The position numbers and the translations under genes are program-made. A stretch of DNA of 64,000 nt from Nonlabens sp. Ci31 (GTDB lineage: Bacteria; Bacteroidota; Bacteroidia; Flavobacteriales; Flavobacteriaceae). The DNA is taken from assembly GCF_012974865.1 (NCBI RefSeq), contig NZ_CP043633.1, positions 2,365,001 through 2,429,000 on the forward strand, written 5' to 3'. Position 1 is the first letter of the stretch, and every line of letters starts with the position of its first letter. The notes beneath the pieces are model-generated. The model was not told the DNA's origin. It saw nothing but the letters and a program-made list of their open reading frames with translations, and did no database searches. Shown here piece after piece: positions 31-55,279 of this stretch.

Positions 31-74
31 TAAATTTAAGCTATATTAATGGTTTTTACAGTAACATAGGTTAC
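31..74 (-). promoter_or_regulatory. Crp/Fnr-type box with -7 element, reading leftward off the window
   Basis: The palindrome GTAAC-ATAG-GTTAC lies at 61-74. On the minus strand a TAAATTTA (TAnnTTTA) box lies at 38-31, and the palindrome centre is 29.5 bp from its first base. The same geometry recurs at three other promoters in this window (4.9, 5.8 and 6.9 kb). I infer an activator-dependent promoter for a gene left of position 1; that gene is not visible. Confidence 0.6.
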
Positions 75-103
75 AAAACAAAGTTCTAAAAAACAACATA
101 GAT

Positions 104-117
104 GCTTTCGCGAAAGC
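104..117. repeat. GCTTTCGCGAAAGC dispersed palindrome, exact, intergenic
   Basis: Exact copy of the 14-bp palindrome that recurs through the window. It lies between the window edge and the 3' end of a degraded gene. Confidence 0.9.
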
Positions 118-142
118 CTAATCAGTCATAAATAGATCTATT

Positions 143-580
143 TCACAAAAGTTTGGGAAAGAACTTGCCTGTAGTTTTTGTATAGTTTTTATAATCGTGA
201 AACTTAGCACTCCACTTTTTCTCTTTAAAAGCGGGACTTATTTATAAAAGCACTGACAACAATAGTGTTACGAGTATTTTAAACGTATAATAGCTGTATA
301 AAGCATAACCACTACAAGCTAATAGAATGCCTGTGTAAACAGGAGGGGTTATGTGTTTATAAAGTCCGCTTTGAATGAGTTGACTTTTTGACTTAGGCGT
401 TGGGAACGCTGATAGGTTTTTATTAAGTTGTAGCATTGAAAGTATTAATATGGAGATGCCTAAAATAGAAATAAATAATCCTTGTGTTTTTAAATATTTT
501 GGCATATTTATTTCAATAAGTTGCACATTACATAGATATGCTATAAAAGAGCAGCTTGTCAACCAACTAGTATGTAATCT
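143..580 (-). pseudogene. Isoprenylcysteine/phospholipid methyltransferase-like protein, interrupted
   Basis: The open part (562 to 242) reads as a small membrane protein with two hydrophobic segments, the LNKNLS stretch and an SGLYKHITPPVYTG motif typical of ICMT/PEMT-like methyltransferases, which use S-adenosylmethionine at the membrane. An in-frame TAA at 244-242 ends it early. The same frame then continues for 33 codons with the family's usual charged C-terminus (EKKWSAKFHDYKNYTK...FFP) to a stop at 143. Upstream, the frame closes at a stop just beyond 580 and the usual N-terminal membrane segment is missing. The gene therefore looks degraded at both ends. The family call is by motif and length and is moderately secure; the pseudogene call is stronger. 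Confidence 0.6.
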
Positions 581-790
581 TTAGAATCTAATGTCATACA
601 TATATGTTTGAAACAGGAGGGAAAATTAATAGTTTCGTCTTCTAGATCAGCTTTAAATATGGAACTTTAGTTTAGTAATCGCCCCCTTTTATTACTTATT
701 TGCTTCTAGAGATTTATATCTTAAAGAGCTATTTTAATATAGTGTTAGGTTGATAGCTAACCGCATGGTGAAGAAAGTAAATCAATCTTT

Positions 791-1480
791 CTAATGTGTA
801 CCGTCGATAACAAAATCCACAGCCATTTGAGCATGTAAATTGGTTGTAGCGAGCGCAGGGATCTTTACCTCTTTTTGTTTTAATAAAAGTGGTAGCTCTG
901 TACATCCCAGAATAATTCCTTGAGCTCCTCGCTTTACCAACAAATCTATTTGATCCATAAAGAATTGTTTTGCCTCGCTCGTGAAGAGACCTTTTGTCAA
1001 CTCTTTAGATACATAATTGTGAGCTGGCACAATGTAATCGGACTCAGGAATGATAGTCTCTATATCATAATTAGACCTTAAGACACTAGAGATGAAATCT
1101 CCTGTCATAGTAGGTTTATTTCCTAATAATCCAAGCTTTTTTAAGCCTTTTCTTTTAGCTTCTTTACCAGTTGCATTTGCAATGTGTAAAATAGGGATGT
1201 TAATTTGTGGCTGTACAAAATCATAAACCATATGAGGCGTATTTGCACAAATAATAATGGCTTCTGCTCCAGCCTGTTCTAGTTTTAGAGATACATCGAG
1301 GTATTTAGCATTGATCTCATCCTTATTCTGTTTCCGCATTAACTCAATATTTATACTATGTATAATTAGTGGTGGATTGCCTTGGGTTCCAATTTTCTCA
1401 CCTACTAATTCATTAATTAGTCGATAGTATTCAATAGTTGAATGCCAAGATGTTCCGCCAATCATTCCTAATGTTTTCAT
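791..1480 (-). CDS. Aspartate/glutamate racemase family protein
   Basis: A 229-residue cytoplasmic protein that opens with MKTLGMIGGTSWHSTIEYY, the signature start of the YgeA/RacX amino-acid racemase family. Two catalytic cysteines fit the family: one in IIICANTPHM near residue 79 and one in IILGCTELPLL near residue 190. These enzymes epimerise amino acids without cofactor by a two-base mechanism; the substrate cannot be told from sequence. It stands alone, with about 150 bp to the cytochrome gene and over 200 bp without a gene downstream. Length is normal for the family. Confidence 0.88.
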   Translation of the reverse strand: MKTLGMIGGTSWHSTIEYYRLINELVGEKIGTQGNPPLIIHSINIELMRKQNKDEINAKYLDVSLKLEQAGAEAIIICANTPHMVYDFVQPQINIPILHIANATGKEAKRKGLKKLGLLGNKPTMTGDFISSVLRSNYDIETIIPESDYIVPAHNYVSKELTKGLFTSEAKQFFMDQIDLLVKRGAQGIILGCTELPLLLKQKEVKIPALATTNLHAQMAVDFVIDGTH

Positions 1481-1633
1481 CGTAAAGTAGTTTTTAGAAG
1501 CCTCTTTTTATGGAAGTCATTTATAGTATTTAATAGTTCCTAACTGATATAATGCGGTTTCTTATTTTGTGATTGAATATTGTAAACGAGGCCTATGGTG
1601 TAAAACATTAGGAGTTGATGCTTTATTTTAATG

Positions 1634-2653
1634 CTATTCAAAGCTAATACTCCATATGCCGCGTACTTCGTTAACATCATAACCCAAGGCTTTATCTTCT
1701 GGATACAATAGGGAAATACTTGCAAGCACTTCAGGCTGTATATCTTTACTAGTTGTGCCATGACATTGTAGACACAGCGAGTTTGTCATAATAGGATAGT
1801 AAAAATGAGAACGCCCATTTTTTACTTCAGTTACAGGCTGGTAGGTATCATTAAGGGCTACCGCTTTTTTAAATTTATCTATGATCTCCAATTCTCTTGA
1901 ATTGGCTTGATTTATAGAATTTCTAGGTTGATCGCTCACTCTTTTTATGGTTGCATTTTGCGCGGTCGCCATACTGTCTGTAATAGGATAGGCTTGTTTA
2001 TTACAAAAGGATACGGCTTCTTTAACACCTTTCTTTTGGATAGTTCCCATCAAGTTTTTGCCTAGTTCTTTCTTAGTGTTTAATGCATATTCAAGTCCGC
2101 GTTCAGCAGGTGTGTTTTCTAAATCAGAAGCGGTACTTTTCACCTCTTTTCCATCATTGCGGTATGGCATTTTGCCGTTACTTTCTTCTTCTATATGCTC
2201 TTGGAACCATTCGGGTTCATCGATTTTAAAATCGTAAATATAGTCGGCAATTTGTCTGATTTCTTCTTCTACAAAAGGTCGATAGGGCATTAAGTTAAAA
2301 CGACGTATCGCACCTCGCATCTTAGACTTTTCCTTAGAAGGTTTTTCCACAAAATTCCACATGGCGTTAGCAAAGGCTTCTTTGGTAATATCACTAGTCA
2401 TGTAATGTGACTTTACTGCTACCATAGGTGGTGCAATACGGCCTTTGTTTTCAGTAGTAGGATGGTGACATACATAGCACTTGTTCACCATCAGTTTTTT
2501 ACCGGGATGTTGGTCAGAGGTATAGTTAGTTGTTTTCTGTTTTACTTTATCGGGGTTAGTATACTCCGCTTTTTCTAGCTCTTTACAGCTGCTTATGCTT
2601 AGTGATATTAATAAAATCATAAGCATTAGAATGGTAGGCTGGTTTATTTTCAT
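1634..2653 (-). CDS. Lipoprotein c-type cytochrome with DUF3365 (Tll0287-like) domain
   Basis: A 339-residue exported lipoprotein with lipobox cysteine near residue 23 (SISSCK). It carries two haem c sites: CYVCH near residue 59, followed by an NLMPY segment that could supply the distal Met, and CLQCH near residue 297 in a C-terminal DUF3365 domain. The first half resembles a mono-haem cytochrome c, the second the Tll0287-like sensor/redox domain. It lies 18 bp downstream of the DUF202 gene and near the rhodanese genes. I infer a periplasmic electron-transfer role linked to sulfur oxidation; the electron partner is unknown. Confidence 0.82.
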   Translation of the reverse strand: MKINQPTILMLMILLISLSISSCKELEKAEYTNPDKVKQKTTNYTSDQHPGKKLMVNKCYVCHHPTTENKGRIAPPMVAVKSHYMTSDITKEAFANAMWNFVEKPSKEKSKMRGAIRRFNLMPYRPFVEEEIRQIADYIYDFKIDEPEWFQEHIEEESNGKMPYRNDGKEVKSTASDLENTPAERGLEYALNTKKELGKNLMGTIQKKGVKEAVSFCNKQAYPITDSMATAQNATIKRVSDQPRNSINQANSRELEIIDKFKKAVALNDTYQPVTEVKNGRSHFYYPIMTNSLCLQCHGTTSKDIQPEVLASISLLYPEDKALGYDVNEVRGIWSISFE

Positions 2654-2671
2654 GTTTTAGAATTGATGTAA

Positions 2672-2926
2672 TTAATAATATTTATTAATTCCTTTTTTTA
2701 CATATAGAAACCTAAACAATCCTATTAAAAATAATAGAGGAGCTATACTGATAAGCATAAAACCTACCCATCTGATATCTGTTAAAATATCTAGTTTAAT
2801 AATAGCAAAACCAGAACTTAAGAATACTATAAACGTTCTGAAATAGGCTAGAAATGTACGTTCGTTAGCTAGATTTGTTCTATCAATAGCTAATTTATCT
2901 GTAAGAGATAGGTCTGACTTTTCCAT
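2672..2926 (-). CDS. DUF202 (YidH-like) membrane protein
   Basis: An 84-residue protein with the family signature LAIDRTNLANERTFLAYFRT at residues 12-31 and two hydrophobic helices after it. DUF202 proteins are small inner-membrane proteins of unknown biochemistry. It sits between the rhodanese and the cytochrome gene in the same direction, with gaps of 38 and 18 bp, and is probably cotranscribed with them. Confidence 0.87.
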   Translation of the reverse strand: MEKSDLSLTDKLAIDRTNLANERTFLAYFRTFIVFLSSGFAIIKLDILTDIRWVGFMLISIAPLLFLIGLFRFLYVKKGINKYY

Positions 2927-2964
2927 AACTTATTTCGTTTTTTATGAGGCACAACTTCATACCT

Positions 2965-3336
2965 TTATTTCCAGCCTAGGTATCCACCTTGTAAATCATA
3001 GATTTCTTTGAATCCAAGACTTATTAGTTGTCGAGCTGCTTTATTGCTGCGACCTCCAGAACGGCAATACAGGTATATAGGGATTTCTTTATCCAATTTA
3101 TGGACGTCTTCTAAAAATTGGTTAGATTTTAAAAAGTCAATATTTAAAGCTCCTTTGATATGACCGCTTTGAAATTCAAGGGCAGTTCTAACATCTACCA
3201 GTTGAACACTATCTTTAGAAATACCTTGTTTAAATTCGGTGGTAGAAAGTATCTTAATAGCACTGGTATCTTGAGCTGTTGCGCCAAAAAGGCTGCTTAA
3301 AAAAGACATAATTACTAGCGTTTTAGTTATAGACAT
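2965..3336 (-). CDS. Exported single-domain rhodanese
   Basis: A 123-residue protein with a signal peptide (residues 1-21, ending GATAQ) and one rhodanese domain. The active-site loop reads YCRSGGRSNKAA, with the catalytic Cys that carries a persulfide in sulfur transfer. A periplasmic sulfurtransferase fits with the persulfide dioxygenase and cytochrome genes around it. There is a 120-bp gap to the upstream double-rhodanese gene in which I see no Crp/Fnr-type box. Confidence 0.9.
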   Translation of the reverse strand: MSITKTLVIMSFLSSLFGATAQDTSAIKILSTTEFKQGISKDSVQLVDVRTALEFQSGHIKGALNIDFLKSNQFLEDVHKLDKEIPIYLYCRSGGRSNKAARQLISLGFKEIYDLQGGYLGWK

Positions 3337-3455
3337 AGGATTGTTTTTAAAAAAATTAAGTAAGCAATTAATATCGCAGCATCACAGATATTACTACAGT
3401 AAAAAACGATCTGTTTTCTACTCATTTTACCGAAGATACAAAATCAAGAAGCCGT

Positions 3456-4289
3456 TTAAAGTGTTGAGGGGCATACATAATTTGTTGTTTTTATTCCGGT
3501 TCCTTTAATGGCTTCAAAGCCCCCGTTAACATCTATCAAATTGTGTATACCGCGACTCTTTAAAATAGAGGCAGCTATCATACTTCTATACCCACCTGCG
3601 CAATGCACAAAAAAGCTTTGCTCTGGAAAGGAAGCTAAATGATCATTGAGAAATTCTAAAGGTGTATTTTGAGCATCTACAACATGTTCAGAAAGGTATT
3701 CACTCTCTTTACGCACGTCAAAGACTTCCAAGTGTCTTTCTTTTTCTTCTTTTTCAAATTGGCTAGCCGTGATAGAAGCTACGGTATCGTATTCCATCGC
3801 AGCTTTTTTCCAGGATTCAAAACCACCATCTAAATAGCCTATACTATGGTCAAAGCCTACTCGAGAAAGTCGTGTGAGGGTTTCTTTCTCACGGCCTGGT
3901 GCAGTAACTAGGAGTAGGGGTTGTTTTACATCGGCAATGAGCGTGCCTACCCAAGGGGCAAAACTACCGTCAAGACCTATAAAAATAGACCTAGGGATAT
4001 GTCCTTTAGCAAACTCATCTTGAGAGCGTACGTCTAAAACAACAGCACCAGTTTCTATAGCAACAGCTTTAAAGGCTTTGACTGAAAGGGCTTGTGTGCC
4101 TCTTTTGAGTATTTCATCAAGGTCTTCATAACCCTCCTTATTCATTTGGACGTTGAGCGGGAAATAGGGTGGAGGTGGTACTAATCCATGCGTGACTTCG
4201 TCGATGAATTCTTCTTTGGTCATGTCTGCTCGTAAGGCATAGTTCATTTGTTTCTGATTGCCCAAAGTGTCTACAGTTTCTTTCATCAT
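3456..4289 (-). CDS. Rhodanese half of a split persulfide dioxygenase-rhodanese protein
   Basis: This 277-residue ORF holds two rhodanese domains. The first (about residues 60-165) lacks the catalytic Cys (LLVTAPGREKE), and the second has it in FVHCAGGYRSM. In flavobacteria this sequence is normally the C-terminal part of one protein of about 470 residues that starts with a metallo-beta-lactamase domain; from memory of the family the junction reads GSACGKN-MMKETVDTLGNQ. Here the upstream ORF ends GSACGKT-stop at 4286 and this ORF begins MMKETV at 4289, so a missing A in the run at 4291-4294 explains the split. The ATGATG overlap could still allow coupled translation. It ends with the family's usual CPSTL. 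Confidence 0.85.
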   Translation of the reverse strand: MMKETVDTLGNQKQMNYALRADMTKEEFIDEVTHGLVPPPPYFPLNVQMNKEGYEDLDEILKRGTQALSVKAFKAVAIETGAVVLDVRSQDEFAKGHIPRSIFIGLDGSFAPWVGTLIADVKQPLLLVTAPGREKETLTRLSRVGFDHSIGYLDGGFESWKKAAMEYDTVASITASQFEKEEKERHLEVFDVRKESEYLSEHVVDAQNTPLEFLNDHLASFPEQSFFVHCAGGYRSMIAASILKSRGIHNLIDVNGGFEAIKGTGIKTTNYVCPSTL

Positions 4290-4861
4290 GTTTTACCGCA
4301 AGCAGATCCAGCACCGTGGGCTGGATATACAATAACATCATCTGAAAGAGGCATTATTTTATTGCGCAAGCTGTCATAAAGAAAGCCTGCCAAATCTTTT
4401 TCGGATAGAACACCTATTTTCTGAGCTAAATCTGGTCTGCCCACGTCACCTAAAAATAAGGTATCACCACTAAAAATAGCATGGTCTTTACCATGCTCAT
4501 CTCTCCATAAATAAGTGGTGCTTTCCATGGTATGACCAGGTGTGTGAAGGGCTATAATAGTTACATCGCCTAGTGGGAACTCTTGTCCATCTTTTGCAAT
4601 AATCGCATCAAAAGTTGGGTTTGCATTTGGGCCAAAAACTATAGGAGCACCAGTCTTTTTGGAAAGGGTCACGTGACCACTAACAAAATCGGCATGGAAA
4701 TGGGTTTCAAAGATATATTTGATTTGTGCAGCGTCTTTTTTTGCCCTATCGAGATAGGAAGCCACCTCTCTTAATGGGTCAATAATAGCAACCTCGCCCT
4801 TACTTTCTATGTAATAAGCACCTTGTGCTAGACAACCCGTATAGATTTGTTCTATTTTCAT
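4286..4861 (-). CDS. Persulfide dioxygenase-like metallo-beta-lactamase domain (N-terminal half of split protein)
   Basis: A 191-residue ETHE1/Blh-like MBL-fold domain. Visible metal ligands are THFHADF near residues 52-58, HTPGHT near 107, SGDTLF near 130 and VYPAHG near 179. The family oxidises glutathione persulfide or related low-molecular-weight persulfides with one Fe(II); bacillithiol persulfide is a plausible substrate here because bshB1 is present at 15.7 kb (inference). The ORF ends in the linker that normally continues into the rhodanese domains and overlaps the next ORF by 4 nt. Its promoter region carries a Crp/Fnr-type box at 4969-4982. Confidence 0.88.
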   Translation of the reverse strand: MKIEQIYTGCLAQGAYYIESKGEVAIIDPLREVASYLDRAKKDAAQIKYIFETHFHADFVSGHVTLSKKTGAPIVFGPNANPTFDAIIAKDGQEFPLGDVTIIALHTPGHTMESTTYLWRDEHGKDHAIFSGDTLFLGDVGRPDLAQKIGVLSEKDLAGFLYDSLRNKIMPLSDDVIVYPAHGAGSACGKT

Positions 4862-4893
4862 TTTTGTTTATTTTATGCCCTCGCAATGTGAAC

Positions 4894-4919
4894 TGTTTCG
4901 CTTTCGCGAAAGCGAAACA
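4894..4919. repeat. GCTTTCGCGAAAGC palindrome within a 26-bp perfect palindrome
   Basis: The exact 14-mer is at 4900-4913. Symmetry extends to 26 bp (TGTTTCGC...GCGAAACA). It falls in the predicted 5' leader of the persulfide dioxygenase gene, where the RNA could fold into a strong hairpin. Confidence 0.9.
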
Positions 4920-4938
4920 CAAAACGAGATGAACCATA

Positions 4939-4982
4939 TAAAAATAGTACCTATAAGCCTCTTTGTCAGTAACTAATGTTAC
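4939..4982 (-). promoter_or_regulatory. Crp/Fnr-dependent promoter of the persulfide dioxygenase gene
   Basis: GTAAC-TAAT-GTTAC at 4969-4982 and, on the minus strand, TATTTTTA at 4946-4939 as the -7 box. The centre is 29.5 bp from the -7 box, which puts it about 42 bp upstream of the expected start of transcription, the class II activator position. The leader would be about 70 nt. The box overlaps the stop codon of the exporter gene. Confidence 0.65.
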
Positions 4983-5779
4983 ATAATGAGCTCTTTATAA
5001 ATAATATAGAAGCCCATGATGAGGACAAACCAGCCAAAAGCTTTCTTTAGCTTTTTACCGTCAATAAATTTATTGAGCCATATACCAATAAATATTCCAA
5101 CGATAGAAACTGCTGTAAAGGATAGTAAAAATGTCCAGTCTATTTCTAGGTTTTTTACATCACCTAAAAAGCCTATAAGTGATTTAATAGCGATGATAAA
5201 TAGAGAAGTGGCTACTGCTTTTTTCATAGGCAATTTAGCAAGTAACACTAAGGCAGGGATGATTAAAAAGCCTCCTCCAGCACCCACAATTCCTGTAATG
5301 AAACCCACTACAAGACCTTCTATAATGATAAGTGGATAATTATAGGTAATAATGCTTTCTGCTTCAGGTTCTTTGCTTTTGTTGCGTATCATCGATACAG
5401 ATGCCAGTAGCATGATGAGTGCAAAAAAGAGCATTATGGCTATATTTTTTGTAATCAAAAAGCCTCCTAGTGTAAAAAGTTCTTCAGGAATCGCCGGTAT
5501 TAAATATGCTCTAGTGAGGTATACAGCTATAAATGCAGGAACTGCAAAAATAATAGCTGTTTTAAAGTCTACCATTCCTTTCATCATATTTTTAACAGCG
5601 CCTACTAGTGATGTAGCACCTACGACAAAAAGAGAATAAGCGGTGGCTAGCACAGGATTAAATGCAAGAGCGTATACTAAAATAGGAACGGTAAGTATGG
5701 AACCACCACCACCTATAAGTCCCAAAACAAGTCCTATTAAAAGTGCTCCTACATATCCAAGTATTTCTATGCTTTCCAT
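4979..5779 (-). CDS. TauE/SafE family sulfite/sulfur-compound exporter
   Basis: A polytopic membrane protein of 266 residues from the ATG at 5779 (MESIEILGYVGALL). It has two glycine-rich repeats typical of TauE/SafE: GLVLGLIGGGGSILTVP near residue 18 and GFITGIVGAGGGFLIIPAL near residue 160. These proteins move sulfite, sulfoacetate or other organosulfur anions. I prefer 5779 over a start at 5851 because the longer form would run through the promoter at 5798-5841. It sits between the regulator gene and the persulfide dioxygenase gene, fitting export of sulfite made by persulfide oxidation. Confidence 0.87.
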   Translation of the reverse strand: MESIEILGYVGALLIGLVLGLIGGGGSILTVPILVYALAFNPVLATAYSLFVVGATSLVGAVKNMMKGMVDFKTAIIFAVPAFIAVYLTRAYLIPAIPEELFTLGGFLITKNIAIMLFFALIMLLASVSMIRNKSKEPEAESIITYNYPLIIIEGLVVGFITGIVGAGGGFLIIPALVLLAKLPMKKAVATSLFIIAIKSLIGFLGDVKNLEIDWTFLLSFTAVSIVGIFIGIWLNKFIDGKKLKKAFGWFVLIMGFYIIYKELIM

Positions 5780-5797
5780 TGAAGAAGTTTGCTGGTA

Positions 5798-5841
5798 TAA
5801 AGGTAATCTGTTAAGAATCGATGTTTTGTAACAAAAGTTAC
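5798..5841 (-). promoter_or_regulatory. Crp/Fnr-dependent promoter of the TauE-family gene
   Basis: The palindrome GTAAC-AAAA-GTTAC at 5828-5841 extends to perfect 7-bp arms (TTGTAAC/GTTACAA). On the minus strand TACCTTTA at 5805-5798 is the -7 box, 29.5 bp from the centre. The box overlaps the last codons of the regulator gene, so the exporter seems to have its own promoter controlled by that regulator (inference). Confidence 0.68.
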
Positions 5842-6464
5842 AAGACCTCAATAAAACTGCGATGTAGTTCTATCTTACCTATATTTTCCATCTTTTTAAG
5901 TAATCTGGATATCACTACACGACTGGTGTGCAAGTCTGCTGCAATTTCTTTATGAGTAGTGTAAATATGCTTACTATTTAATATTTTAATTTTATCGTTG
6001 AGGTAGTTTTCCAGGCGCTCATCCATATTATTAAAAGCTATATTATCGATACTTTCAAGGAGTTCCATCATGCGAGTGTGGTAGCTAGCAAAAACAAAGT
6101 TGCGCCAAGTTTTGTACTTGCTCGACCATTCTTCCATTTTAGCTACAGGAATCAGGAGTAGTTTTACAGGAGTCTCTGTTACTGCGTGTATTTCACTTTT
6201 AGTATTTCCTACACAACAGGTCATGGTCATGGCGCAAGTATTACCACGTTCTAGATGGTAAAGTAATAGCTCATTGCCTTCACTATCGGGTCGCATGATC
6301 TTGATACTTCCAGAAAGTAGTAGGGGCATTGATTTAATATACTGACCCGGTTTCATTAAATCTTGTCCAGCGGGAACTTCCATAAAGGTAGCTACATTGT
6401 TAATTTCTTCTATAAGTGGCAGTTCAAACTGTGAACCGTAATATTCTTTAAGTTCTTGTATCAT
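5838..6464 (-). CDS. Crp/Fnr family transcriptional regulator with a Cys triad
   Basis: A 208-residue regulator with an N-terminal cyclic-nucleotide-type beta barrel (about residues 20-110), a dimerisation helix and a C-terminal winged HTH (IAADLHTSRVVISRLLKKM). Three cysteines (about 77, 83 and 84, in CAMTMTCC) occupy the loop where CRP binds the cAMP phosphate, so a thiol or persulfide signal is more likely than cAMP (inference). The recognition helix keeps the Ser-Arg of FNR, but Val stands where CRP/FNR have the conserved Glu, consistent with a half-site lacking the usual TGA core. GTAAC-N4-GTTAC palindromes lie at the flanking promoters; none is seen at its own. Confidence 0.88.
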   Translation of the reverse strand: MIQELKEYYGSQFELPLIEEINNVATFMEVPAGQDLMKPGQYIKSMPLLLSGSIKIMRPDSEGNELLLYHLERGNTCAMTMTCCVGNTKSEIHAVTETPVKLLLIPVAKMEEWSSKYKTWRNFVFASYHTRMMELLESIDNIAFNNMDERLENYLNDKIKILNSKHIYTTHKEIAADLHTSRVVISRLLKKMENIGKIELHRSFIEVL

Positions 6465-6895
6465 TAGTGATTTTTTTTAGCGATCTGCGGGTTGTACATA
6501 AAAAAGAGGTGTGACCATATGGCTCTGGCAACAGCTCTTATTATAGATCTAAGTAAATGTAAGTACAGCTATTATCGCTATAAAGATAATCAAAGGATGA
6601 TTTGCCCTCCCTAAAAGAAGTAAAATAACATAAGTAGCTACTGCAAATGCCATACGAATACCCTAATAAATATATGGATCAGGAACACAAACCAGTGGTT
6701 ATACTGTATTTTAATTCACTCTTTGGGCGTCACTCTGCTCGCTTATTTCTCTTGGAAATTTTATATGGTTGGGACTCTAGAAAGTTCCCTCTGCGGCAAT
6801 ACTGGGATTGTAAAAAAAAGAATGCTATAACCAACTGACTTTTGGAACATTACTTCTATTTTTAGTCCATCCAAAAGGTTTAATAATCACTTAAA
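6465..6895. other. Divergent intergenic region, no gene seen
   Basis: About 430 bp between the regulator (minus) and the efflux operon (plus). The only longer frame in it (6647-6838, plus) has no recognisable family or credible composition. No Crp/Fnr-type box is seen near the regulator's start. Confidence 0.5.
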
Positions 6896-6940
6896 GTAAC
6901 ATTGGTTACTGATTAGGACATTTTAAATTTCTTATCTTTA
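6896..6940 (+). promoter_or_regulatory. Crp/Fnr-dependent promoter of the metal-efflux operon
   Basis: GTAAC-ATTG-GTTAC at 6896-6909 is followed by TATCTTTA at 6933-6940 as the -7 box, 30.5 bp from the palindrome centre. Transcription would start at about 6946, at the GTG start codon of the first gene, so the message may be leaderless or the true start codon lies further in. Confidence 0.62.
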
Positions 6941-6944
6941 CCGA

Positions 6945-7343
6945 GTGATAAAGTTATTTTCCTTATCTGTTTCTTTAATCATCCTGATGCAAAGCTTTGG
7001 GATGCATGTTAATGATATATCTCAGATGGATGAATTTATAGAGCACGCTCAATTTCATAACGAGCAATATGGCGATAGCATAATCGTATTTATTGCAAAG
7101 CATTACGGAGAATTAAAGGCAGACCATGCTAAAGATCACCAAGAAGAAAAAGAAGATCACGAGCAATTGCCATTCCAGCATCAGTCCCACCTTTCTTCCA
7201 GTTCTAGTTTTATTTTAAATTCTATTAGAGAAGAATTTAAAACTATGGAACTTCCAGAGTGTAAAGAACATAATTTCCATTACCAAGAGCCTTCCTCATC
7301 CCTACACTTAGAAGGACTTTTCCAGCCACCGAGGCTTTCATAA
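6945..7343 (+). CDS. Small exported His/Glu-rich protein heading the metal-efflux operon
   Basis: A 132-residue protein starting with GTG, with a hydrophobic N-terminus (IKLFSLSVSLIILMQSFG) that looks like a signal peptide. The middle is rich in His, Asp and Glu (DHAKDHQEEKEDHEQ), a composition suited to loose metal binding. I do not recognise a named domain. It is the first gene of the plus-strand efflux operon, 76 bp before the RND gene. A periplasmic metal-buffering or sensing role is inference from composition and position. Confidence 0.7.
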   Translation: MIKLFSLSVSLIILMQSFGMHVNDISQMDEFIEHAQFHNEQYGDSIIVFIAKHYGELKADHAKDHQEEKEDHEQLPFQHQSHLSSSSSFILNSIREEFKTMELPECKEHNFHYQEPSSSLHLEGLFQPPRLS

Positions 7344-16445: not shown

Positions 16446-17603
16446 TTAGTTTTTTTTACGACTTTTTCCAATCGCATTTTCTAAATCAGCGATAAGAATT
16501 TCTGGTTCTTCAATACCTACAGAAAACCTTAATAAGCCATCAGAAATACCTTGTTCTTCTCTTTCTTCAGGAGTCAGCAGGCTGTGTGAAGTGGTACTAG
16601 GTGCTAGAATAGTACTTTCTACACCTGCAAGACTTAAGGCAGGCATAATCACTTCTAGTTCTTCTAAGAAAGTGGTGTAATTGATGTGTTTTTTAAGTTC
16701 AAAGGACATCATACCACCGTAGGCATTCATTTGCTTTTTAGCGAGTTGGTGTTGTGGATGCGATTTTAACCCCGGATAATTTACTTTTTTAATGTCTGGA
16801 TGTTGATCTAAAAATTTAGCTAGTTTTTTAGCGTTTTTAGATTGTGCCTTTACTCTTAAAGCTAGAGTCTTGATACTTCTTTCTAACAGCCATACCGTTT
16901 GATCACTTAAGCTACCGCCATAATTCTTGGCAGTTTTCCAGAGTCTATCCATATGCACTTGGCTACAACTTACCGTACCTGCACAAATATCGCTGTGACC
17001 GCCTAAATATTTAGTCGCACTGTGTATGACGATATCAATTCCAAAATCGGCAGGAGTCTGGTTGATAGGGGAGGCAAATGTGTTATCTATTGCGGTTGTT
17101 AAGGAATTCGCTTTCGCGAAAGCGGAAACCAAAGCCATATCTGTAACCTCTAACAATGGGTTGCTAGGTGTTTCTATGTACACCATCTTAGTATTAGGCT
17201 TCAAACTTGCTTCCAGACTTTCTTGATCCACATGCTCGATCATGGTGTATTGAATACCTACATTTTCAAACTCTGCCGCTGCAAAATGAGCAGTACCACC
17301 GTAAATAGCCCGCTGCATGATGACGTGATCTCCAGTTTTAAGAAAAGCCATAAATACGGCACTAATAGCTGCCATCCCACTACCGAATATCATTCCAGCT
17401 TCCGTATGTTCTAATGCCGCCATCTTTTTACCAAGAGCCACTTGATTAGGAGTATTAAAATAACGCGGATATAAATTGGTTCCTTCGCCTCTGTAATCAT
17501 AAGCAGTGGATGTGTAAATAGGGGCCGTTGCACCGCCATAAACTTCATCTTTTAACTGTCCTGCATGCACACAAACGTAGTTGGGATTTCTATTTTCTTT
17601 CAT
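16446..17603 (-). CDS. PLP-dependent transsulfuration enzyme (cystathionine gamma-synthase/lyase family)
   Basis: A 385-residue Cys/Met metabolism PLP enzyme. The PLP lysine is in SATKYLGGHSDICAG near residue 200, with YxxRxxNP-like PRYFNTPN near residue 48, FGSGMAAISA near 73 and the C-terminal SLAGVESTILAPSTTSHS. The family includes cystathionine gamma-synthase, beta- and gamma-lyase and methionine gamma-lyase; sequence alone does not settle which. It probably forms an operon with bshB1. One exact dispersed palindrome lies in frame (SAFAKA). Confidence 0.9.
   Translation of the reverse strand: MKENRNPNYVCVHAGQLKDEVYGGATAPIYTSTAYDYRGEGTNLYPRYFNTPNQVALGKKMAALEHTEAGMIFGSGMAAISAVFMAFLKTGDHVIMQRAIYGGTAHFAAAEFENVGIQYTMIEHVDQESLEASLKPNTKMVYIETPSNPLLEVTDMALVSAFAKANSLTTAIDNTFASPINQTPADFGIDIVIHSATKYLGGHSDICAGTVSCSQVHMDRLWKTAKNYGGSLSDQTVWLLERSIKTLALRVKAQSKNAKKLAKFLDQHPDIKKVNYPGLKSHPQHQLAKKQMNAYGGMMSFELKKHINYTTFLEELEVIMPALSLAGVESTILAPSTTSHSLLTPEEREEQGISDGLLRFSVGIEEPEILIADLENAIGKSRKKN
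17110..17123. repeat. GCTTTCGCGAAAGC palindrome, exact, inside transsulfuration gene
   Basis: Encodes AFAKA in frame on the minus strand. Confidence 0.9.
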
Positions 17604-20573: not shown

Positions 20574-22406
20574 CTAATTTTCAGTATATTCCTTTTTTAA
20601 AAACGCTTCATCTGTAAGTGTTTTCATAAAGTTGATAAGGTCTGTTTTTTCTGGAGTTGTTAAGTGTAAGGAATCTGGTGGTAATGTCTGGAACTCTTGA
20701 TCTGTTATTCCTATACCGTAACCACCACCTAAGTTATAAAACTCTATGACTTCTTCCAGCGTTTTATAGGCTCCGTTATGCATATAAGGAGCGGTAAGCG
20801 CTATATTTCTTATGCTAGGTGTTTTAAAGAAGTGTTTTCTATTATCTGTTTTAAAAAGTTCAAACCTTCCTAAATCAGGATCGATGGTCGCATTTTCTGT
20901 CGTGGCTATTTGGGGTACTCCTATATGTTCCATTTCTGTTTCCATGAAATCTGGTGGTACAGTACCATTAAAAACAGGTGCAAAATGGCAGGTAGCACAT
21001 TTTGCTTTACCATTGAAAAGATTAAATCCGTTAATTTCTGAAGCCGTTAACGTGTTGATCTCATTTCTAATATTGCGATCCCATTTTGAATTCCAATAAT
21101 TAAGACTGCGCACATAATCTGCAATGGCAGTTCTTATCGTATGCTGATTGATAGGAGTAGCATAGGCTTTTTTAAAGTCCTTGATGTAGGTAACATCTGT
21201 ATCAATATGTGCTGAAAATCTTTTAAGATCAGAATGGAATTCCTGTGAGTTATTAATAACCGAAACGATCTGACCTTCTAAACTACCAGCTCTTTTGTCA
21301 TAAAAAAAACCTTGTTGGTAAGCACTATAAGTAAGACTTGGACTGTTGCGATTTAATCCAGAAGAGGTAACAAGTCCATCGGTAAATGCCAGCTCGCTTT
21401 TATGACAGGTAGAGCAACTAATCGTTTGAGAAGTGGAAAGTTGCGGGTCATTAAACAAGCGTTTTCCTAAGGCAATTTTTTCTTCTGTAAGCGGTGTTAC
21501 TTTTTGGTCTGCAAAAAAATCTAGTGATAATGCTTCTTTAGAAAACAAGCTGGAAGCATTATTATCCATGGCCATCTGTAAAGGGAATGCTACGTTCCAG
21601 TCTTTTGCAGTGTCGTTCCACAAAACAAGCATTGGATCGATATGAGACTTAATAAACTCATACCTATTGAAATCTTCAAAGTTGCTATTCTTTAAAAACT
21701 GTTTTGATTGTCTAAATTTTTCTTTCCAAGATAATTGGAGCTGGCTATTCGTAAACTTATGGTCGTAGAGCTCTAGTATTTGCTCCGCTTTCGCGAAAGC
21801 AGTAACCGCATCCATCAAACTACTTTCTAAAACAGGAGAATCAAAACCGGTAACTCCTGCAGTGGCGGTGCGTATGAATTGCTTGCGAACCAGCCAAAGA
21901 ACATGGTAGGGCTTAAAAAATGCTAAGTCTGTATTTCTTAAAAGAACCAGCAATCTCGAATGAATTTTACCAGCTATTTTCTGCACAGATGCAATTTCTG
22001 GTGTATCGCTGAAAAGGTTTTCTTCTAAGGTCTGAAAGCTACAGGGTTCATTTATTTTAATATCTGTAAGATCTTCTTCCTCTACTTTGAGAATATTAGG
22101 TGCATTCAGAAAGTTGTAGTTGTTTAGATCATTAAAAGACAGTACAGGCTCTATTTTTTTAAACGCTGTGCGTGCTTTTTTGAAATAATCCCTCAGGCTG
22201 TCGATATGGGAAGTTAGGGTTAAAGAATCTATATAATTGGCACAATTTTGCAGATCATTTAGATACATATTCTGGAGTGCAGAAGACGGTTGTAGATCTA
22301 TTTGTTCAACATATTCTTTCTGTTCCTGTTTACAAGAGATCAGTAGCAAAAGAAGACCTGTAATCAAACAGGTCTTCTTTAATAAAGTGGAGGTCAGTAA
22401 ACCCAT
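20574..22406 (-). CDS. Di-haem cytochrome c peroxidase-like lipoprotein with N-terminal helical domain
   Basis: A 610-residue exported lipoprotein (lipobox LLISCK, Cys near 25). The C-terminal half is a MauG/CcpA-type di-haem peroxidase with CSTCH near residue 330 and CATCH near residue 468, followed by FKTPSIRNIALTAPYMHNGAYKTLEEVI. The N-terminal 280 residues are all-helical with no recognised cofactor site and could be imelysin-like, a guess from predicted structure only. It follows the PhoX-like gene by 1 bp on the same strand, so the two products probably act together in the periplasm. One exact dispersed palindrome encodes TAFAKAE. Confidence 0.88.
   Translation of the reverse strand: MGLLTSTLLKKTCLITGLLLLLISCKQEQKEYVEQIDLQPSSALQNMYLNDLQNCANYIDSLTLTSHIDSLRDYFKKARTAFKKIEPVLSFNDLNNYNFLNAPNILKVEEEDLTDIKINEPCSFQTLEENLFSDTPEIASVQKIAGKIHSRLLVLLRNTDLAFFKPYHVLWLVRKQFIRTATAGVTGFDSPVLESSLMDAVTAFAKAEQILELYDHKFTNSQLQLSWKEKFRQSKQFLKNSNFEDFNRYEFIKSHIDPMLVLWNDTAKDWNVAFPLQMAMDNNASSLFSKEALSLDFFADQKVTPLTEEKIALGKRLFNDPQLSTSQTISCSTCHKSELAFTDGLVTSSGLNRNSPSLTYSAYQQGFFYDKRAGSLEGQIVSVINNSQEFHSDLKRFSAHIDTDVTYIKDFKKAYATPINQHTIRTAIADYVRSLNYWNSKWDRNIRNEINTLTASEINGFNLFNGKAKCATCHFAPVFNGTVPPDFMETEMEHIGVPQIATTENATIDPDLGRFELFKTDNRKHFFKTPSIRNIALTAPYMHNGAYKTLEEVIEFYNLGGGYGIGITDQEFQTLPPDSLHLTTPEKTDLINFMKTLTDEAFLKKEYTEN
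21787..21800. repeat. GCTTTCGCGAAAGC palindrome, exact, inside peroxidase gene
   Basis: Encodes AFAKA in frame on the minus strand. Confidence 0.9.
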
Positions 22407-33142: not shown

Positions 33143-35770
33143 ATGGAAACAGCTCTAGAATACCTTTTAAAAAGCGCCGGAGTACTTAGTATCTTCGTAC
33201 TTATCTATCATTTTCTGTTGCGCAGACTGACCTTTTTCAATACTAACCGCTGGTTTTTACTATCAGGAATTGTGGCAAGTATCCTTTTCCCTTTTGTAGA
33301 AATTACTCAAACCGTTTACCTAGAGCAGCCAGAGCAACTCACCTATTTACCGCAACAACTGTCAACTTCCATGGCCATGATATTGCAGCAAACTCCAGTG
33401 GAGTCCACACATCCATACGATTATGCTTTGTTAGCCTTTTACATTTACGCAGCTATTTCTCTATTTTTTCTTGGTAAAATGCTTGTAGAACTGAGCTCGC
33501 TAAGAAGTTTAATTAAAGCTGGAAACAAGACTCGATCTGGTAAATTTATGATGGTGACGCTTTCGCGAAAGCTGACACCTTTCAGTTTCTTTAACTATAT
33601 ATGTTATTCTCAAGAAGATCAAAATACACCAGAATTAGATTTAATTCTCGATCATGAGAAAGTCCATGCAAGAGAATGGCATTCTATAGACCTACTGCTA
33701 TCGCATGTTTTTAAAGCTCTATTCTGGATCAATCCGCTGGTGTGGGTATTAAAAAGGCAAATAGGAGAAAATCTAGAATTTATAGCCGACTCAAAGGCCG
33801 CAACTCAAAATACCACAGGAATGAGCTATGAGCGTACTTTATTAAGCGCCGTTGCCAGCTATAAACAGCCAGCACTGGCAAATAATTTCTTTACTCCTTT
33901 TATTAAAAAGCGAATTCTTATGTTACAAAAAGAAGCCTCAGCAACATGGAATGTCTATAAATATGCCTTGATATTGCCCGTAATCGTGATTTTCCTTTAC
34001 AGTTTTAATGTGGTGGAAGAGATTGAATATGTGGAAAATACCAAAACACGAATGGTCCATCAAAAGGATTCTAAATTTGAGGAATTAGTTTTTGATATTA
34101 CTAGTAAAACTGATGATAAACAGTTAGAAAAGTATAGAAAGCTCATAGAGTCTAAGATGGATTACCAATTGAGGTTTGATGACTTAGATAGAGATGTAAA
34201 CGATCTTTTGAAAAAAATGAGTGTGTCTGCAAAGTTTCCTGATAGAGAATGGGAAAAAGGTTTTACCGTGTTGCTTACCGATAAGGATTTGATTCTATTA
34301 ATGGCTTACCCTGATAAGATTTCCTTGCATATTCCAAAAGATAAAATCACACTATCAATAGATCAAAATGGAAGTAAAGTACTCGTGCCGGAAACGGATC
34401 TTTATGGAGATGCACCGGAGGTTACAGAAGAAGCTACAAAACCAATCGTAGATTTTGATCATAGCATTACTTTTAAAATAGATGCAACATCTACAAAAGA
34501 ATATCTCGATGAAAAGAAGGCGTATTTAAAAAAGGAATATAAGGTAGATTTTGACTACAGTAGATTGAAAATAAAAAATGCAAAGGTCGTAAGAATTAAA
34601 ATTACGCTAGACGATAATGATGGCTATACCAGTTCCCAATCCTATTCTAATGATGACGGAATACCTGAAATATGTGTGACAGGAGTTATTAAAGAAGATT
34701 CTCAGTCATGGAGTATGGGTGCTTGTAAGGCTAATACTCCTCGTGAATCTTATTCCTTACCTAGTAGGGTAAGTTATTCGGTATCCAAAAACGCTTCTTC
34801 CATTGATATGGATAGTTTAATGAAGCAGGTGAAGGAGCAAATTAAGAACATCAATCTAGAGGAACTACATCTAGATTTGCAAAATATCCAGATGGATATT
34901 ATTCTTAAAGAGGCATCTATTCAAATGAAAAATCTCGACATAGATTCTTTACAAAATGAATTGCAAATTCAATTTAAGAAGATGAACATGGATTCGTTGA
35001 CGAATACGTTAAAGATGTTCCATTTTAAAAATCCACAAACAGCGCATGCTTTTGAAAATGGTATTTCTACTAGACCCACTACAGCCGCTCAAATCAAACA
35101 AGGTTTAGGAAAAAACCCACCTCTTACGATTGTTGATGGAAAAGAAATGGAGGAGGAAGAATGGAAGTTAATACATCCAAATTTTATTGAAAGCATAACC
35201 GTTTTAGAAGATAGTGCCGCCACTATAAAATATGGAGAGAAAGGAAAAAATGGGGTTATGCTTATAAAAACGGCCTCAGGAAAACAGAAAGAACTAGAAG
35301 AAAGAAGGTTTTATGTTCAGGGCAAAAGAAAATCTTTGGATTCTGTAAAACAAAAAATGTATATAACAAGAGATTCTCTTCTAGTAAACAGATCTGAGGA
35401 AATGGAGGAGCGACGAGCGCAAGCCTTATTGAAAAGAGAAGAGACTATGGCTGACAGATTTGAAAATGTCACAATTGACTTTCTAACTGATCATAAAGGT
35501 CATGGTCGCCTTGCTACAGATAAAAAGGAAACTTTTTACATCACAGACATGTCTAAAGAAAGTTTTGAAAAGTTTCAGAAACAGCTAGAAAAAGCAGGAC
35601 ATACTTTTAAATTAATTACCCACCACATGAAAAGTGATCGATTGGTGAAATTGAAATATAAAATAAACGGTTCTCAGCATACCTATGAAACTAATAAAGG
35701 AATAAAGGAACTTCAGATTAAATTTATGAAAGGTGAAAAAACCCCCACAATAACTACTATTCCTTATTAG
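33143..35770 (+). CDS. BlaR1-like M56 membrane metallopeptidase with long C-terminal region
   Basis: An 875-residue protein. The N-terminal 300 residues have several membrane helices and the M56 zinc motif HEKVH near residue 170, with NLEFIADSKA downstream. The long extracytoplasmic part lacks a penicillin-binding domain and instead has repeated short amphipathic segments (IDMDSLMKQVKEQIKNIN, LDIDSLQNELQIQFKK) and a TonB-plug-like stretch ending YGEKGKNGVMLIKT near residue 700. Such plug-like tails are usual in Bacteroidota M56 proteins. It probably senses an envelope signal and inactivates the BlaI partner. One exact palindrome encodes TLSRKL. Confidence 0.88.
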   Translation: METALEYLLKSAGVLSIFVLIYHFLLRRLTFFNTNRWFLLSGIVASILFPFVEITQTVYLEQPEQLTYLPQQLSTSMAMILQQTPVESTHPYDYALLAFYIYAAISLFFLGKMLVELSSLRSLIKAGNKTRSGKFMMVTLSRKLTPFSFFNYICYSQEDQNTPELDLILDHEKVHAREWHSIDLLLSHVFKALFWINPLVWVLKRQIGENLEFIADSKAATQNTTGMSYERTLLSAVASYKQPALANNFFTPFIKKRILMLQKEASATWNVYKYALILPVIVIFLYSFNVVEEIEYVENTKTRMVHQKDSKFEELVFDITSKTDDKQLEKYRKLIESKMDYQLRFDDLDRDVNDLLKKMSVSAKFPDREWEKGFTVLLTDKDLILLMAYPDKISLHIPKDKITLSIDQNGSKVLVPETDLYGDAPEVTEEATKPIVDFDHSITFKIDATSTKEYLDEKKAYLKKEYKVDFDYSRLKIKNAKVVRIKITLDDNDGYTSSQSYSNDDGIPEICVTGVIKEDSQSWSMGACKANTPRESYSLPSRVSYSVSKNASSIDMDSLMKQVKEQIKNINLEELHLDLQNIQMDIILKEASIQMKNLDIDSLQNELQIQFKKMNMDSLTNTLKMFHFKNPQTAHAFENGISTRPTTAAQIKQGLGKNPPLTIVDGKEMEEEEWKLIHPNFIESITVLEDSAATIKYGEKGKNGVMLIKTASGKQKELEERRFYVQGKRKSLDSVKQKMYITRDSLLVNRSEEMEERRAQALLKREETMADRFENVTIDFLTDHKGHGRLATDKKETFYITDMSKESFEKFQKQLEKAGHTFKLITHHMKSDRLVKLKYKINGSQHTYETNKGIKELQIKFMKGEKTPTITTIPY
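33559..33572. repeat. GCTTTCGCGAAAGC palindrome, exact, inside M56 gene
   Basis: Read in the third frame it encodes LSRK. Confidence 0.9.
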
Positions 35771-39298: not shown

Positions 39299-39709
39299 GT
39301 GAAAGAAGTGATCCACTTTAAAGATATGAATACACAGCGCTACAAGATCATACTTGGGCTGGCAGTTTTCATGTTGGTCATGGCTGGAGTTTTCTTTTTA
39401 AACAATTTAACACTTTATAGTTCGATCGCTGCTCTTACGGCAGTAACATTATTCTACTTTAATAGTTACGAGGGGTTTTCAACACGCAACTCTGCTTCTT
39501 ACAGCCGTACCTCAATAACGGTTAAATTAGTAGGTAGAAAAACATTCGGTTTTAGTTTTAAAGAATTAGAAAAACTAGACCTTTCTGATAAAGGTCTTTA
39601 TATAAAATCAAAGGGGATGGATGCGGTGACGCTTTCGCGAAAGCGATATGAAGACAATTCCCTAACCCAATTACATAATATTTTACAAGAAAAAAAGTAC
39701 ATCAAATGA
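39299..39709 (+). CDS. Membrane protein of unknown function upstream of ettA
   Basis: A 136-residue frame starting GTG immediately after the previous stop; an alternative ATG is at 39326 (MNTQRYKII). It has two hydrophobic helices (about 15-55) and a cytoplasmic C-terminal domain. It overlaps ettA by 4 bp (ATGA), so it is cotranscribed and coupled. An exact dispersed palindrome encodes TLSRKR near the C-terminus. Confidence 0.72.
   Translation: MKEVIHFKDMNTQRYKIILGLAVFMLVMAGVFFLNNLTLYSSIAALTAVTLFYFNSYEGFSTRNSASYSRTSITVKLVGRKTFGFSFKELEKLDLSDKGLYIKSKGMDAVTLSRKRYEDNSLTQLHNILQEKKYIK
39631..39644. repeat. GCTTTCGCGAAAGC palindrome, exact, inside membrane-protein gene
   Basis: Read in the third frame it encodes LSRK. 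Confidence 0.9.
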
Positions 39710-54266: not shown

Positions 54267-55279
54267 TGAAGAATATTCTCTACATAGGTAATCAACTAGG
54301 ACAAAAAGGTAAGACGGCAACTAGCATAGATACTTTAGGTCCTTTATTGGAAAAAGAAGGGTATCAATTGCGTTATGCTTCTTCTGTTCCAAACATCAGC
54401 AGGCGTATGCTAGACATGATGTACACGACTTTCAAGAGTAAAAAATGGGCAGACGTAGTTTTGATAGACACTTACAGCACTAAAAACTTTTGGTTTGCGA
54501 TTCTTATCTCCCGTTTATGTACATCATTTAGTATAAAGTACATTCCCATTCTTCACGGCGGAAATTTACCGATTCGATTATCTAAAAACCCAAGGGTTAT
54601 GGGAGGTTTTCTTAATAACGCTCATGCTGTTGTAAGCCCTAGTGATTATTTGCGTTCCGCTTTCGCGAAAGCGGGTTACCACAACGTCACTAAGATCAAT
54701 AACTTTATAGAGATAGAAAACTATGCGTTTCTAGAACGATCTGTCCTTGAGCCAAAACTTCTTTGGGTACGATCATTTGCAGGTATTTACAATCCGCAAA
54801 TGGCGGTTCGTGTTCTTCACTTACTCCGGGAGAATTATCCTAAAGCTAGTCTGACCATGGTAGGTCCAGAAAAAGATGGGGCACTAGAAGCCTGTAAGTT
54901 GCTGGCTCAAGAATTACAAGTAGAAGTAAATTTTACCGGGTTGCTTTCTAAAAAGCAATGGATAGAAAAAAGTAAAGATCATTCTATTTTTATCAATACC
55001 ACCCATTTTGATAACCTTCCAGTAAGTTTAATCGAAGCGATGGCATTAGGATTACCAGTCGTGTCTACTGACGTAGGAGGTATCCCATACTTAATACATC
55101 CTAACGTCCACGGTAAGTTAGTTCCAGATAACGATGTAGGAGCAATGGTAGAAAATATTGAGCATCTAATAAGCCATCCTAAAGATGTTATGACTATAAT
55201 TACAAAAGCTAGGAAAAGGTCATTAGATTATTCTTGGAAAGAAGTAAGCCAGTTATGGAACTCATTACTGGAGTCATAA
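54266..55279 (+). CDS. Glycosyltransferase family 4-like protein
   Basis: A 337-residue GT-B glycosyltransferase. Sugar-nucleotide-binding signatures include VSPSDYLRSAFAKAGY near 125, FINTTHFDNLPVSLIEAMALGLPVVSTDVGGIPYLI near 240-275 (with the E-x7-E-like motif) and GKLVPDND near 285. It adds a sugar to a lipid-linked polysaccharide precursor; the donor is unknown. The gene overlaps the upstream ligase-like gene by 1 bp. Confidence 0.9.
   Translation: MKNILYIGNQLGQKGKTATSIDTLGPLLEKEGYQLRYASSVPNISRRMLDMMYTTFKSKKWADVVLIDTYSTKNFWFAILISRLCTSFSIKYIPILHGGNLPIRLSKNPRVMGGFLNNAHAVVSPSDYLRSAFAKAGYHNVTKINNFIEIENYAFLERSVLEPKLLWVRSFAGIYNPQMAVRVLHLLRENYPKASLTMVGPEKDGALEACKLLAQELQVEVNFTGLLSKKQWIEKSKDHSIFINTTHFDNLPVSLIEAMALGLPVVSTDVGGIPYLIHPNVHGKLVPDNDVGAMVENIEHLISHPKDVMTIITKARKRSLDYSWKEVSQLWNSLLES
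54659..54672. repeat. GCTTTCGCGAAAGC palindrome, exact, inside glycosyltransferase gene
   Basis: Encodes AFAKA in frame. Confidence 0.9.

Follow-up and report, generated by a model that had tools for sequence, protein, structure and literature searches.

The 64,000-nucleotide stretch of Nonlabens sp. Ci31 DNA analysed here (the window; positions 2365001-2429000 of a single-contig 3.74-Mb genome) carries four copies of the palindrome GTAAC-N4-GTTAC, with the gene of a Crp/Fnr-family regulator among them (Table 1). In all likelihood the palindrome is the operator of this regulator (5838-6464), which would act as a class II activator of a sulfur-detoxification regulon. The box, its spacing, the gene content downstream, the co-occurrence of box and regulator and the covariation between recognition helix and half-site are observed in the sequences, and from these we infer binding and activation. 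Box and fixed spacing together allow the regulon to be predicted from sequence alone.

The palindrome occurs exactly four times in the window, at the places given in a first-pass annotation of the sequence (61-74, 4969-4982, 5828-5841 and 6896-6909). A count of four was reached in none of 100 dinucleotide shuffles, whose mean was 0.03. The distances from the palindrome centres to the -7 boxes, read from the sequence, are 29.5, 29.5, 29.5 and 30.5 bp, identical to the annotated values. When the first base of the -7 box is placed at -12, the starts downstream of the last three sites are predicted at 4934, 5793 and 6945, and these positions replace the annotated starts 4932, 5791 and 6946.

Conservation was assessed in two sets of loci. 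The first was a non-random set of 30, consisting of this genome and the 29 other best matches among 120 family genomes. A site with at most one mismatch and a loosely defined -7-like box at exactly 29.5 bp was present in 28 of them; by this definition L030 and L042 had no such site. In 25 loci, about 120 nt or less separated the site from the point where the regulator gene ends. The main family set comprised 80 named loci of regulator orthologues, up to 20 kb each and 1,497,415 bases in total, the nearest being that of Flavobacteria bacterium BBFL7 (94% identity over the regulator). These loci contained 244 perfect palindromes versus 0-10 for ten control palindromes, with at least one copy in 78 of the 80. 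TAnnTTTR was found 188 times at 29.5 bp, ten times at 30.5 bp and 0-5 times at each remaining distance in the range 10.5-59.5 bp; for TAnnTTTG the count was 118 at 29.5 bp versus at most three elsewhere. Over the range from -60 to +100 bp, the peaks following that at 29.5 bp were at -5.5 (18, inside the palindrome), -24.5 (12) and 30.5 bp. The last was not adopted as a second spacing class; its count may partly stem from the coding sequence of the regulator gene on the opposite strand.

The composition of the promoter was derived from 228 site/box pairs at 29.5 bp, selected with at most one core mismatch and with the eighth base of the -7 box left free. This base was G in 61% and A in 37% of the pairs (A or G in 98%), and the T flanking GTAAC on its 5' side was retained in 92%. 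The regulon had been annotated as defined by TGTAAC-N4-GTTACA plus TAnnTTTA: the palindrome holds as a marker, whereas TTTA has to be widened, the box being TAnnTTTR in the relatives. In F. psychrophilum TAnnTTTG was mapped to -12 to -5 (in the excerpted text of PMC9723704). A -7 box in this position and the 29.5-bp spacing put the centre of the palindrome at -41.5, so the promoters have class II geometry as predicted from their sequences; the class II placement near -41.5 proposed at first pass is upheld by both the spacing in the relatives and the published mapping. The promoter ahead of the metal-efflux genes has a spacing 1 bp longer than this norm (centre 42.5 bp from the predicted start). 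The median distance from the predicted start to the first plausible start codon was 17 nt (191 perfect sites). TTTG at the normal -33 spacing was found in one of the 228 pairs, versus 12 when the window of the search was shifted as a control; this scarcity is largely forced, since the constant bases of the activator box extend over that position.

This geometry also bears on the possibility that the regulator binds the box but represses at some sites, for example by occluding the promoter until sulfur arrives. Palindromes can serve either role, and among sulfur regulators already known, SqrR/BigR and CstR are described as repressors in the excerpted text of PMC9774590. Repression would, however, not require a class II activator position with invariant spacing, nor a box lying where the -33 element would be; we regard it as improbable.

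The box was then related to the regulator by co-occurrence. Presence of the exact 43-nt pattern was compared with presence of an orthologue in the 120 family genomes, the cross-tables being counted by hand. The pattern was found in 85 of 95 genomes with an orthologue at E<=1e-50, a cut picked after the list had been seen, versus two of the 25 others (Fisher 8e-15). At the search's own cut of 1e-30 the figures were 86 of 102 versus one of 18 (Fisher 9e-11). Eight of the ten orthologue genomes without the exact pattern showed near misses (one mismatch, GTGAC half-sites, or a spacing of 28.5 or 30.5 bp); in the other two, L188 and L190, no near-miss box was found either. One genome of this genus, G010, contains one exact copy of the pattern although it lacks a close orthologue (best match 34% identity, 7.9e-36).

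Covariation was studied at class level in 89 loci (the best 29 plus 60 of the next listed; two contig-end places were skipped). In five loci the helix motif identified no regulator; their exclusion left 84, and one of the 80 family loci was excluded likewise. The residue after Ser-Arg in the recognition helix was Val in 41 and Glu in 43 of the 84 regulators. At the 29.5-bp position the corresponding half-site base was A in 36, G in three and T in one of the boxes of Val types, and G in 13 and A in five of those of Glu types. Glu-type boxes share the spacing of the Val-type boxes, and the box often lies directly after the regulator gene. Counted per locus, Val types gave 14 A, no G and one tie, and Glu types no A, four G and five ties (Fisher on untied loci 3e-4). 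On a tree built with the helix residue masked, the Val/Glu label needs five changes; in three to four independent pairs the half-site base followed the helix in nearly every pairing and never the opposite way (A/G ties coded as G). L221 (Glu, GTGAC) and L225 (Val, GTAAC) belong to one small clade, and in both the box adjoins the end of the regulator gene. The covariation ties the box to this regulator, and GTAAC-N4-GTTAC is very probably its landing site. Altering protein-DNA specificity is a classic experiment; nature offers a counterpart in the Val/Glu switch and the half-site base that goes with it, in close relatives and at the same promoter position.

The covariation also argues against the box belonging to another transcription factor and lying near the regulator through operon linkage only. 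Many palindromes do share the gene cluster of the regulator. Unlinked boxes exist, however: one precedes cydAB about 75 kb away, and in loci selected by the box alone TolC genes stand behind six of 32 boxes. Moreover, this genome has no further paralogue with an SRV helix: among its six PF00027 loci the helix [S/T/A/N]R-V/E-xx-[S/T]R, searched in any frame, occurs only in this regulator. A different factor was therefore considered very improbable.

Several observations weigh against assigning the box to this regulator. Class-wide, the association is weaker, the exact pattern being present in 41 of 146 genomes with a regulator versus seven of 101 others (p 3e-5; this table, too, was counted by hand). 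A scorable box was found in 24 of the 84 class-level loci and none in 60 (26 Val, 34 Glu), and a sign test on three to four independent pairs cannot reach 0.05. In the genome of strain Ci31, the palindrome by itself is not enriched: there are seven copies of GTAAC-N4-GTTAC in 3.74 Mb and six of the reversed control pattern. The genome count thus means little by itself and was dropped as evidence. In addition, the exact -7 box is missing at two of the seven copies.

The unusual part is the 7-kb cluster of four palindromes together with their promoter spacing. Five of the seven genomic palindromes, namely the four in the window and that at 2295823, are accompanied by a TAnnTTT box, 29.5 or 30.5 bp away, and the joint pattern palindrome-N22-TAnnTTT has four exact copies in this genome versus none for the control. 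At 2295823 the box TAACTTTG, which ends in G, lies at 29.5 bp with cydA-like and cydB genes downstream, and cydAB is likely to be a further target, as far as the promoter sequence can tell. The copies at 2719685 and 2282952 were rejected as regulon members. The former lacks a suitably spaced -7 box; the latter has a one-letter-off box at 29.5 bp, but this is directed into the terminal part of a transposase-like gene, and over the next 0.6 kb or so no frame of at least 60 residues starts in its direction other than frames antisense to that gene. The near-control genome total would fit four palindromes that arose by chance or as a repeat element unrelated to regulation. This has almost no probability, being contradicted by the conservation, the spacing and the counts in the 80 loci. 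A scan allowing up to two mismatches gave 25 genomic matches versus 18 for the control, so weak matches need gene context for credence. One such candidate, GTGAC-N4-GTCAC with TACTTTT at 2360930, stands ahead of a TolC-MFP efflux operon. Another, with two mismatches and a TATTTTT box at 2295870, is oriented divergently to the cydAB promoter and stands ahead of genes for a 137-residue protein and a TonB-dependent receptor.

The genes behind the boxes define the predicted regulon. As annotated at first pass, boxes lie upstream of the probable persulfide dioxygenase, TauE and metal-efflux genes, whose Pfam/NCBIfam matches are given in Table 1; a Crp/Fnr gene amid the sites and a fourth site pointing out of the window were also correctly called. 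The operon faced by this last site (61-74) encodes a peroxiredoxin (NF009668, 279 bits versus a cut-off of 211), a 442-residue metallo-beta-lactamase/rhodanese fusion and a Dps/ferritin-like protein. The single-rhodanese gene and the cytochrome c/Tll0287-like gene of the window are both probably part of the persulfide dioxygenase operon. Homologues of the former stand directly behind a box in L156 and L161, and a protein with cytochrome c/Tll0287 domains does so in two of the 80 loci.

In the 80 loci 244 site/box pairs (201 perfect) were counted, 233 of them with a downstream frame. These frames were clustered and named after one representative per cluster. The largest clusters were dioxygenase/rhodanese (69 frames in 53 loci; its representative has 469 residues, fused to rhodanese domains), TauE (47), DUF983 (22), SQR-like (15) and the regulator itself (14). 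They were followed by peroxiredoxin (nine), SulP (eight), the fatty-acid-hydroxylase family (eight), YeeE/YedE (seven), a YgaP-like membrane domain (six), and SorA-like sulfite dehydrogenase, HMA and cytochrome bd (three each). DUF2490, the 132-residue protein preceding the efflux pump, HemN, TolC, cytochrome c/Tll0287, YeiH-like and others appeared once or twice. About 156 of the 233 frames are sulfur-related by name, in a sample biased by the selection of the loci for the regulator. For comparison, 30 loci were selected by the box alone. Of their 32 boxes, 22 were assigned by BLAST, nine were other or unassigned and one had no frame. Besides TolC, the assignments were TauE (five), rhodanese/dioxygenase (three), a single-rhodanese best match (two), SulP (two) and one each of SQR, SorA, YgaP-like and CydA. 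The regulon thus extends past the neighbourhood of the regulator, with TolC-type efflux as a recurring target. The first-pass annotation had sulfur oxidation and metal efflux activated together. Gene content in the relatives bears out both branches and gives them unequal weight: the predicted regulon is chiefly one of sulfur oxidation, and efflux forms a second branch.

The signal was considered next. The regulator has three cysteines, Cys77, Cys83 and Cys84, all invariant in 22 aligned orthologues. Their loop, TCAMTMTCC, lines up with the part of NtcA and 3dv8 that binds the ligand, which in CRP is the nucleotide cassette; in a comparison of the cAMP-binding residues it aligned in the region of the phosphate cassette, where the structure model is unreliable. 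Among the 84 class-level regulators, C-x5-C was present in 80 and the CC pair (CxxxxxCC-type) in 54. The inducer is probably a reactive sulfur species sensed via Cys77/Cys83; a thiol sensor of this kind is the best guess because it fits both the targets and the cysteines. Two results count against it. Residues 78-85 of the structure model have a predicted local distance difference test (pLDDT) score below 50, and the cysteine trio, tried as a marker of sulfur-linked regulators, showed no association with sulfur neighbours (22 of 54 versus 14 of 30, p 0.65).

The main rival is that regulator and box are as described while the signal is oxygen, thiol redox, metals or a small ligand, the sulfur genes being part of a wider redox regulon. 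Its standing comes from the targets cydAB, HemN, peroxiredoxin, Dps and RND/TolC pumps, which are typical of control by oxygen or redox. That the CC pair is not universal and that the cysteine trio does not track sulfur neighbours also fit. On the other hand, sulfur genes make up most of the downstream frames in the regulator-selected loci, and there is no N-terminal cysteine cluster for an Fe-S centre, the cysteines being confined to positions 77, 83 and 84. Such a signal is possible, though we doubt it.

With reactive sulfur as the inducer, the mechanism would be as follows. Reactive sulfur would be sensed via Cys77/Cys83, where CRP has its cyclic-nucleotide cassette. The regulator dimer would bind with its centre at -41.5, covering the position of a -33 element, and would recruit the housekeeping sigma-A RNA polymerase to the TAnnTTTR -7 box by class II activation. 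The dispersed regulon thus activated would remove sulfide and sulfane sulfur. It would include persulfide dioxygenases, rhodaneses, SQR, sulfite dehydrogenase and sulfur-anion transporters such as TauE, with efflux pumps, peroxiredoxin/Dps and cytochrome bd as side branches. In many relatives the regulator would also activate its own gene. More generally, with slightly less than even confidence, we propose that a widespread branch of Bacteroidota Crp/Fnr proteins turned its cyclic-nucleotide pocket into a persulfide/polysulfide thiol sensor and became the master class II activator of sulfide oxidation, in which repeated swaps of the Glu181-to-Val type retuned GTGAC to GTAAC in place.

Membership of the Crp/Fnr family is indicated by PF00027 (8.7e-09, above cut-off) and by a PF13545 match of 1e-05 that, at 25.9 bits, falls short of the cut-off of 27. 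Foldseek matched the structure model, used for the overall fold only, to CRP, NtcA and FNR (E 1e-11 to 3e-13; TM-scores about 0.45-0.67, mostly with high root-mean-square deviation). FNR is defined by an N-terminal cysteine cluster for [4Fe-4S]; the regulator has no cysteine before residue 77. The CRP site consists of GTGA half-sites, as in the Glu-type relatives here, and Glu181 mutants of E. coli CRP reportedly change preference at the matching base. The regulator resembles CRP in fold and in the base-contact positions. It differs in that Val replaces Glu181 and the half-sites are GTAAC, and its score with the CRP equivalog NF008732 was 40.6 bits versus a cut-off of 266. In CRP the base-contact residues are Arg180, Glu181 and Arg185 (excerpt of PMC12531629).

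A close parallel in promoter architecture is NtcA, whose class II promoters in cyanobacteria combine GTAN8TAC, centred at -41.5, with a -10 box TAN3T (excerpt of PMC3898017). As far as that excerpt goes, the two share a Crp-family dimer, a GTA-N8-TAC box centred at -41.5 and 22 nt between the box and the -10/-7 element; in the alignment, the recognition helix also has V after SR/TR. GTAN8TAC at the class II position is thus found here too, whereas the regulator scored 38 bits with the NtcA equivalog of NCBIfam versus a cut-off of 245. NtcA controls nitrogen genes via 2-oxoglutarate, whereas here the genes are sulfur genes, the promoter is of the Bacteroidota TAnnTTTG type and cysteines occupy the ligand loop. 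The best sequence match of solved structure (1.5e-19) was 3dv8, an uncharacterised Crp/Fnr protein of Eubacterium rectale, which has two cysteines aligned with Cys77 and Cys83 but an Arg-Glu recognition helix in the alignment.

Reactive-sulfur regulators have been reviewed (CstR, SqrR/BigR, PigS, FisR, OxyR, LasR and OhrR), and none of them is termed Crp/Fnr in the excerpted text of PMC9774590. According to such excerpts, FisR, SqrR/BigR and CstR likewise control sulfide/persulfide genes and sense via two to three cysteines, but they are Fis-type, ArsR and CsoR-like proteins, in contrast to the Crp/Fnr fold and presumed sigma-A class II activation here. Their domain make-up was not found in the regulator, whose Pfam/NCBIfam matches were only to Crp/Fnr-type or cNMP (cyclic nucleotide monophosphate)-domain models. 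No Crp/Fnr regulator of sulfide oxidation in Bacteroidota was found among the titles and abstract openings listed, a search whose coverage excludes preprints and most subscription literature and in which two listings extended to 20 of 155 and 15 of 19 papers. Within these sources, Crp/Fnr proteins acting as class II activators and boxes of the form GTAN8TAC are already known, while the regulator of sulfur oxidation described here appears new and is well supported, with a putative sensor. Bacteroidota are among the phyla with rising pdo and sqr transcripts in sulfide-amended sediment (excerpt of PMC12345210).

The fourth box has a history of its own. In relatives such as L048, a site some 440 bp ahead of the regulator gene is directed toward an intact DUF983 gene followed by the regulator, so that both genes share one promoter. 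In the window, the palindrome at the equivalent place lacks the leftward -7 box; its rightward -7 box, at 30.5 bp, precedes the 132-residue protein and the efflux pump, and the DUF983 fragments between this box and the regulator sit in different frames. L063 (a Kordia metagenome-assembled genome) has two perfect boxes back to back, both with 29.5-bp spacing, one directed to the pump genes and one to DUF983-regulator. L107 has a single box with one mismatch and -7 boxes on both sides, that toward the pump at 28.5 bp. In L054 the 132-residue gene and the pump are present, and no such box was found upstream. The pump promoter box thus occurs in three of four loci with the 132-residue leader gene. 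Likewise, no box was found upstream of RND-like matches in L052, L054 and L057. Among the family loci the box faces the regulator directly in 14 pairs; BLAST recovered 21 DUF983 pairs, of which 20 are located immediately upstream of the regulator. Judged from these arrangements, a self-activation loop kept by the relatives has probably disappeared from this genome. The predicted start at 6945 coincides with the opening base of the GTG codon at which the 132-residue protein starts, and the transcript may therefore be leaderless. No Pfam match was found for this protein. The roughly 400 C-terminal residues of the pump resemble, by eye, a fused outer-membrane efflux (TolC-type) domain.

Table 1. 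Promoter elements and genes discussed in the text (window coordinates unless a locus is named)
Feature	Position	Strand	Remarks
-7 box, promoter 1	31..38	-	TAAATTTA; 29.5 bp from box centre; predicted start 26; exact pattern match
Activator box 1, GTAAC-N4-GTTAC	61..74	-	faces off-window peroxiredoxin, dioxygenase-rhodanese and Dps genes on the left
Cytochrome c/Tll0287-like protein	1634..2653	-	PF11845, PF00034
Single-rhodanese protein	2965..3336	-	PF00581; signal peptide likely by eye
Tandem-rhodanese protein, 277 residues	3456..4289	-	PF00581, two stretches
Metallo-beta-lactamase-fold protein, probable persulfide dioxygenase, 191 residues	4286..4861	-	PF00753
-7 box, promoter 2	4939..4946	-	TATTTTTA; 29.5 bp; predicted start 4934
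Activator box 2	4969..4982	-	overlaps TauE stop codon; upstream of persulfide dioxygenase
TauE/SafE-family exporter, 266 residues	4979..5779	-	PF01925, 5.4e-46; reading frame verified
-7 box, promoter 3	5798..5805	-	TACCTTTA; 29.5 bp; predicted start 5793; ATG at 5779
Activator box 3	5828..5841	-	overlaps regulator stop codon; upstream of TauE; near regulator gene end also in relatives
Crp/Fnr-family regulator, 208 residues	5838..6464	-	PF00027, PF13545; Cys77, Cys83, Cys84; recognition helix TSRVVISR
Decayed DUF983 gene remnant	6637..6819	-	tblastn 38% over 61 residues, 9e-7; further fragment 6476-6541
Activator box 4	6896..6909	+	upstream of 132-residue protein and RND efflux genes
-7 box, promoter 4	6933..6940	+	TATCTTTA; 30.5 bp; predicted start 6945
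Small protein ahead of RND gene, 132 residues	6945..7343	+	from open reading frame list; homologues in L063, L054, L107
CusA/CzcA-type heavy-metal RND pump, 1457 residues	7381..11754	+	TIGR00914 over residues 14-1058
Two-mismatch box and genes in locus L046	5870-5883 and 5992-8588		locus coordinates; genome 2295870+

A few minor observations were made alongside. Box-preceded genes without an assigned function in L171, L177, L182, L155 and L163 are possibly new members of the regulon, and small Lys/Cys-containing proteins stand behind boxes also in L159, L168 and L181. A different, 12-bp palindrome, CTTTCGCGAAAG, has eight copies in the window versus none expected from shuffles (105-116, 4901-4912, 17111-17122, 21788-21799, 33560-33571, 39632-39643, 54660-54671 and 59894-59905); two of these lie near regulon sites.

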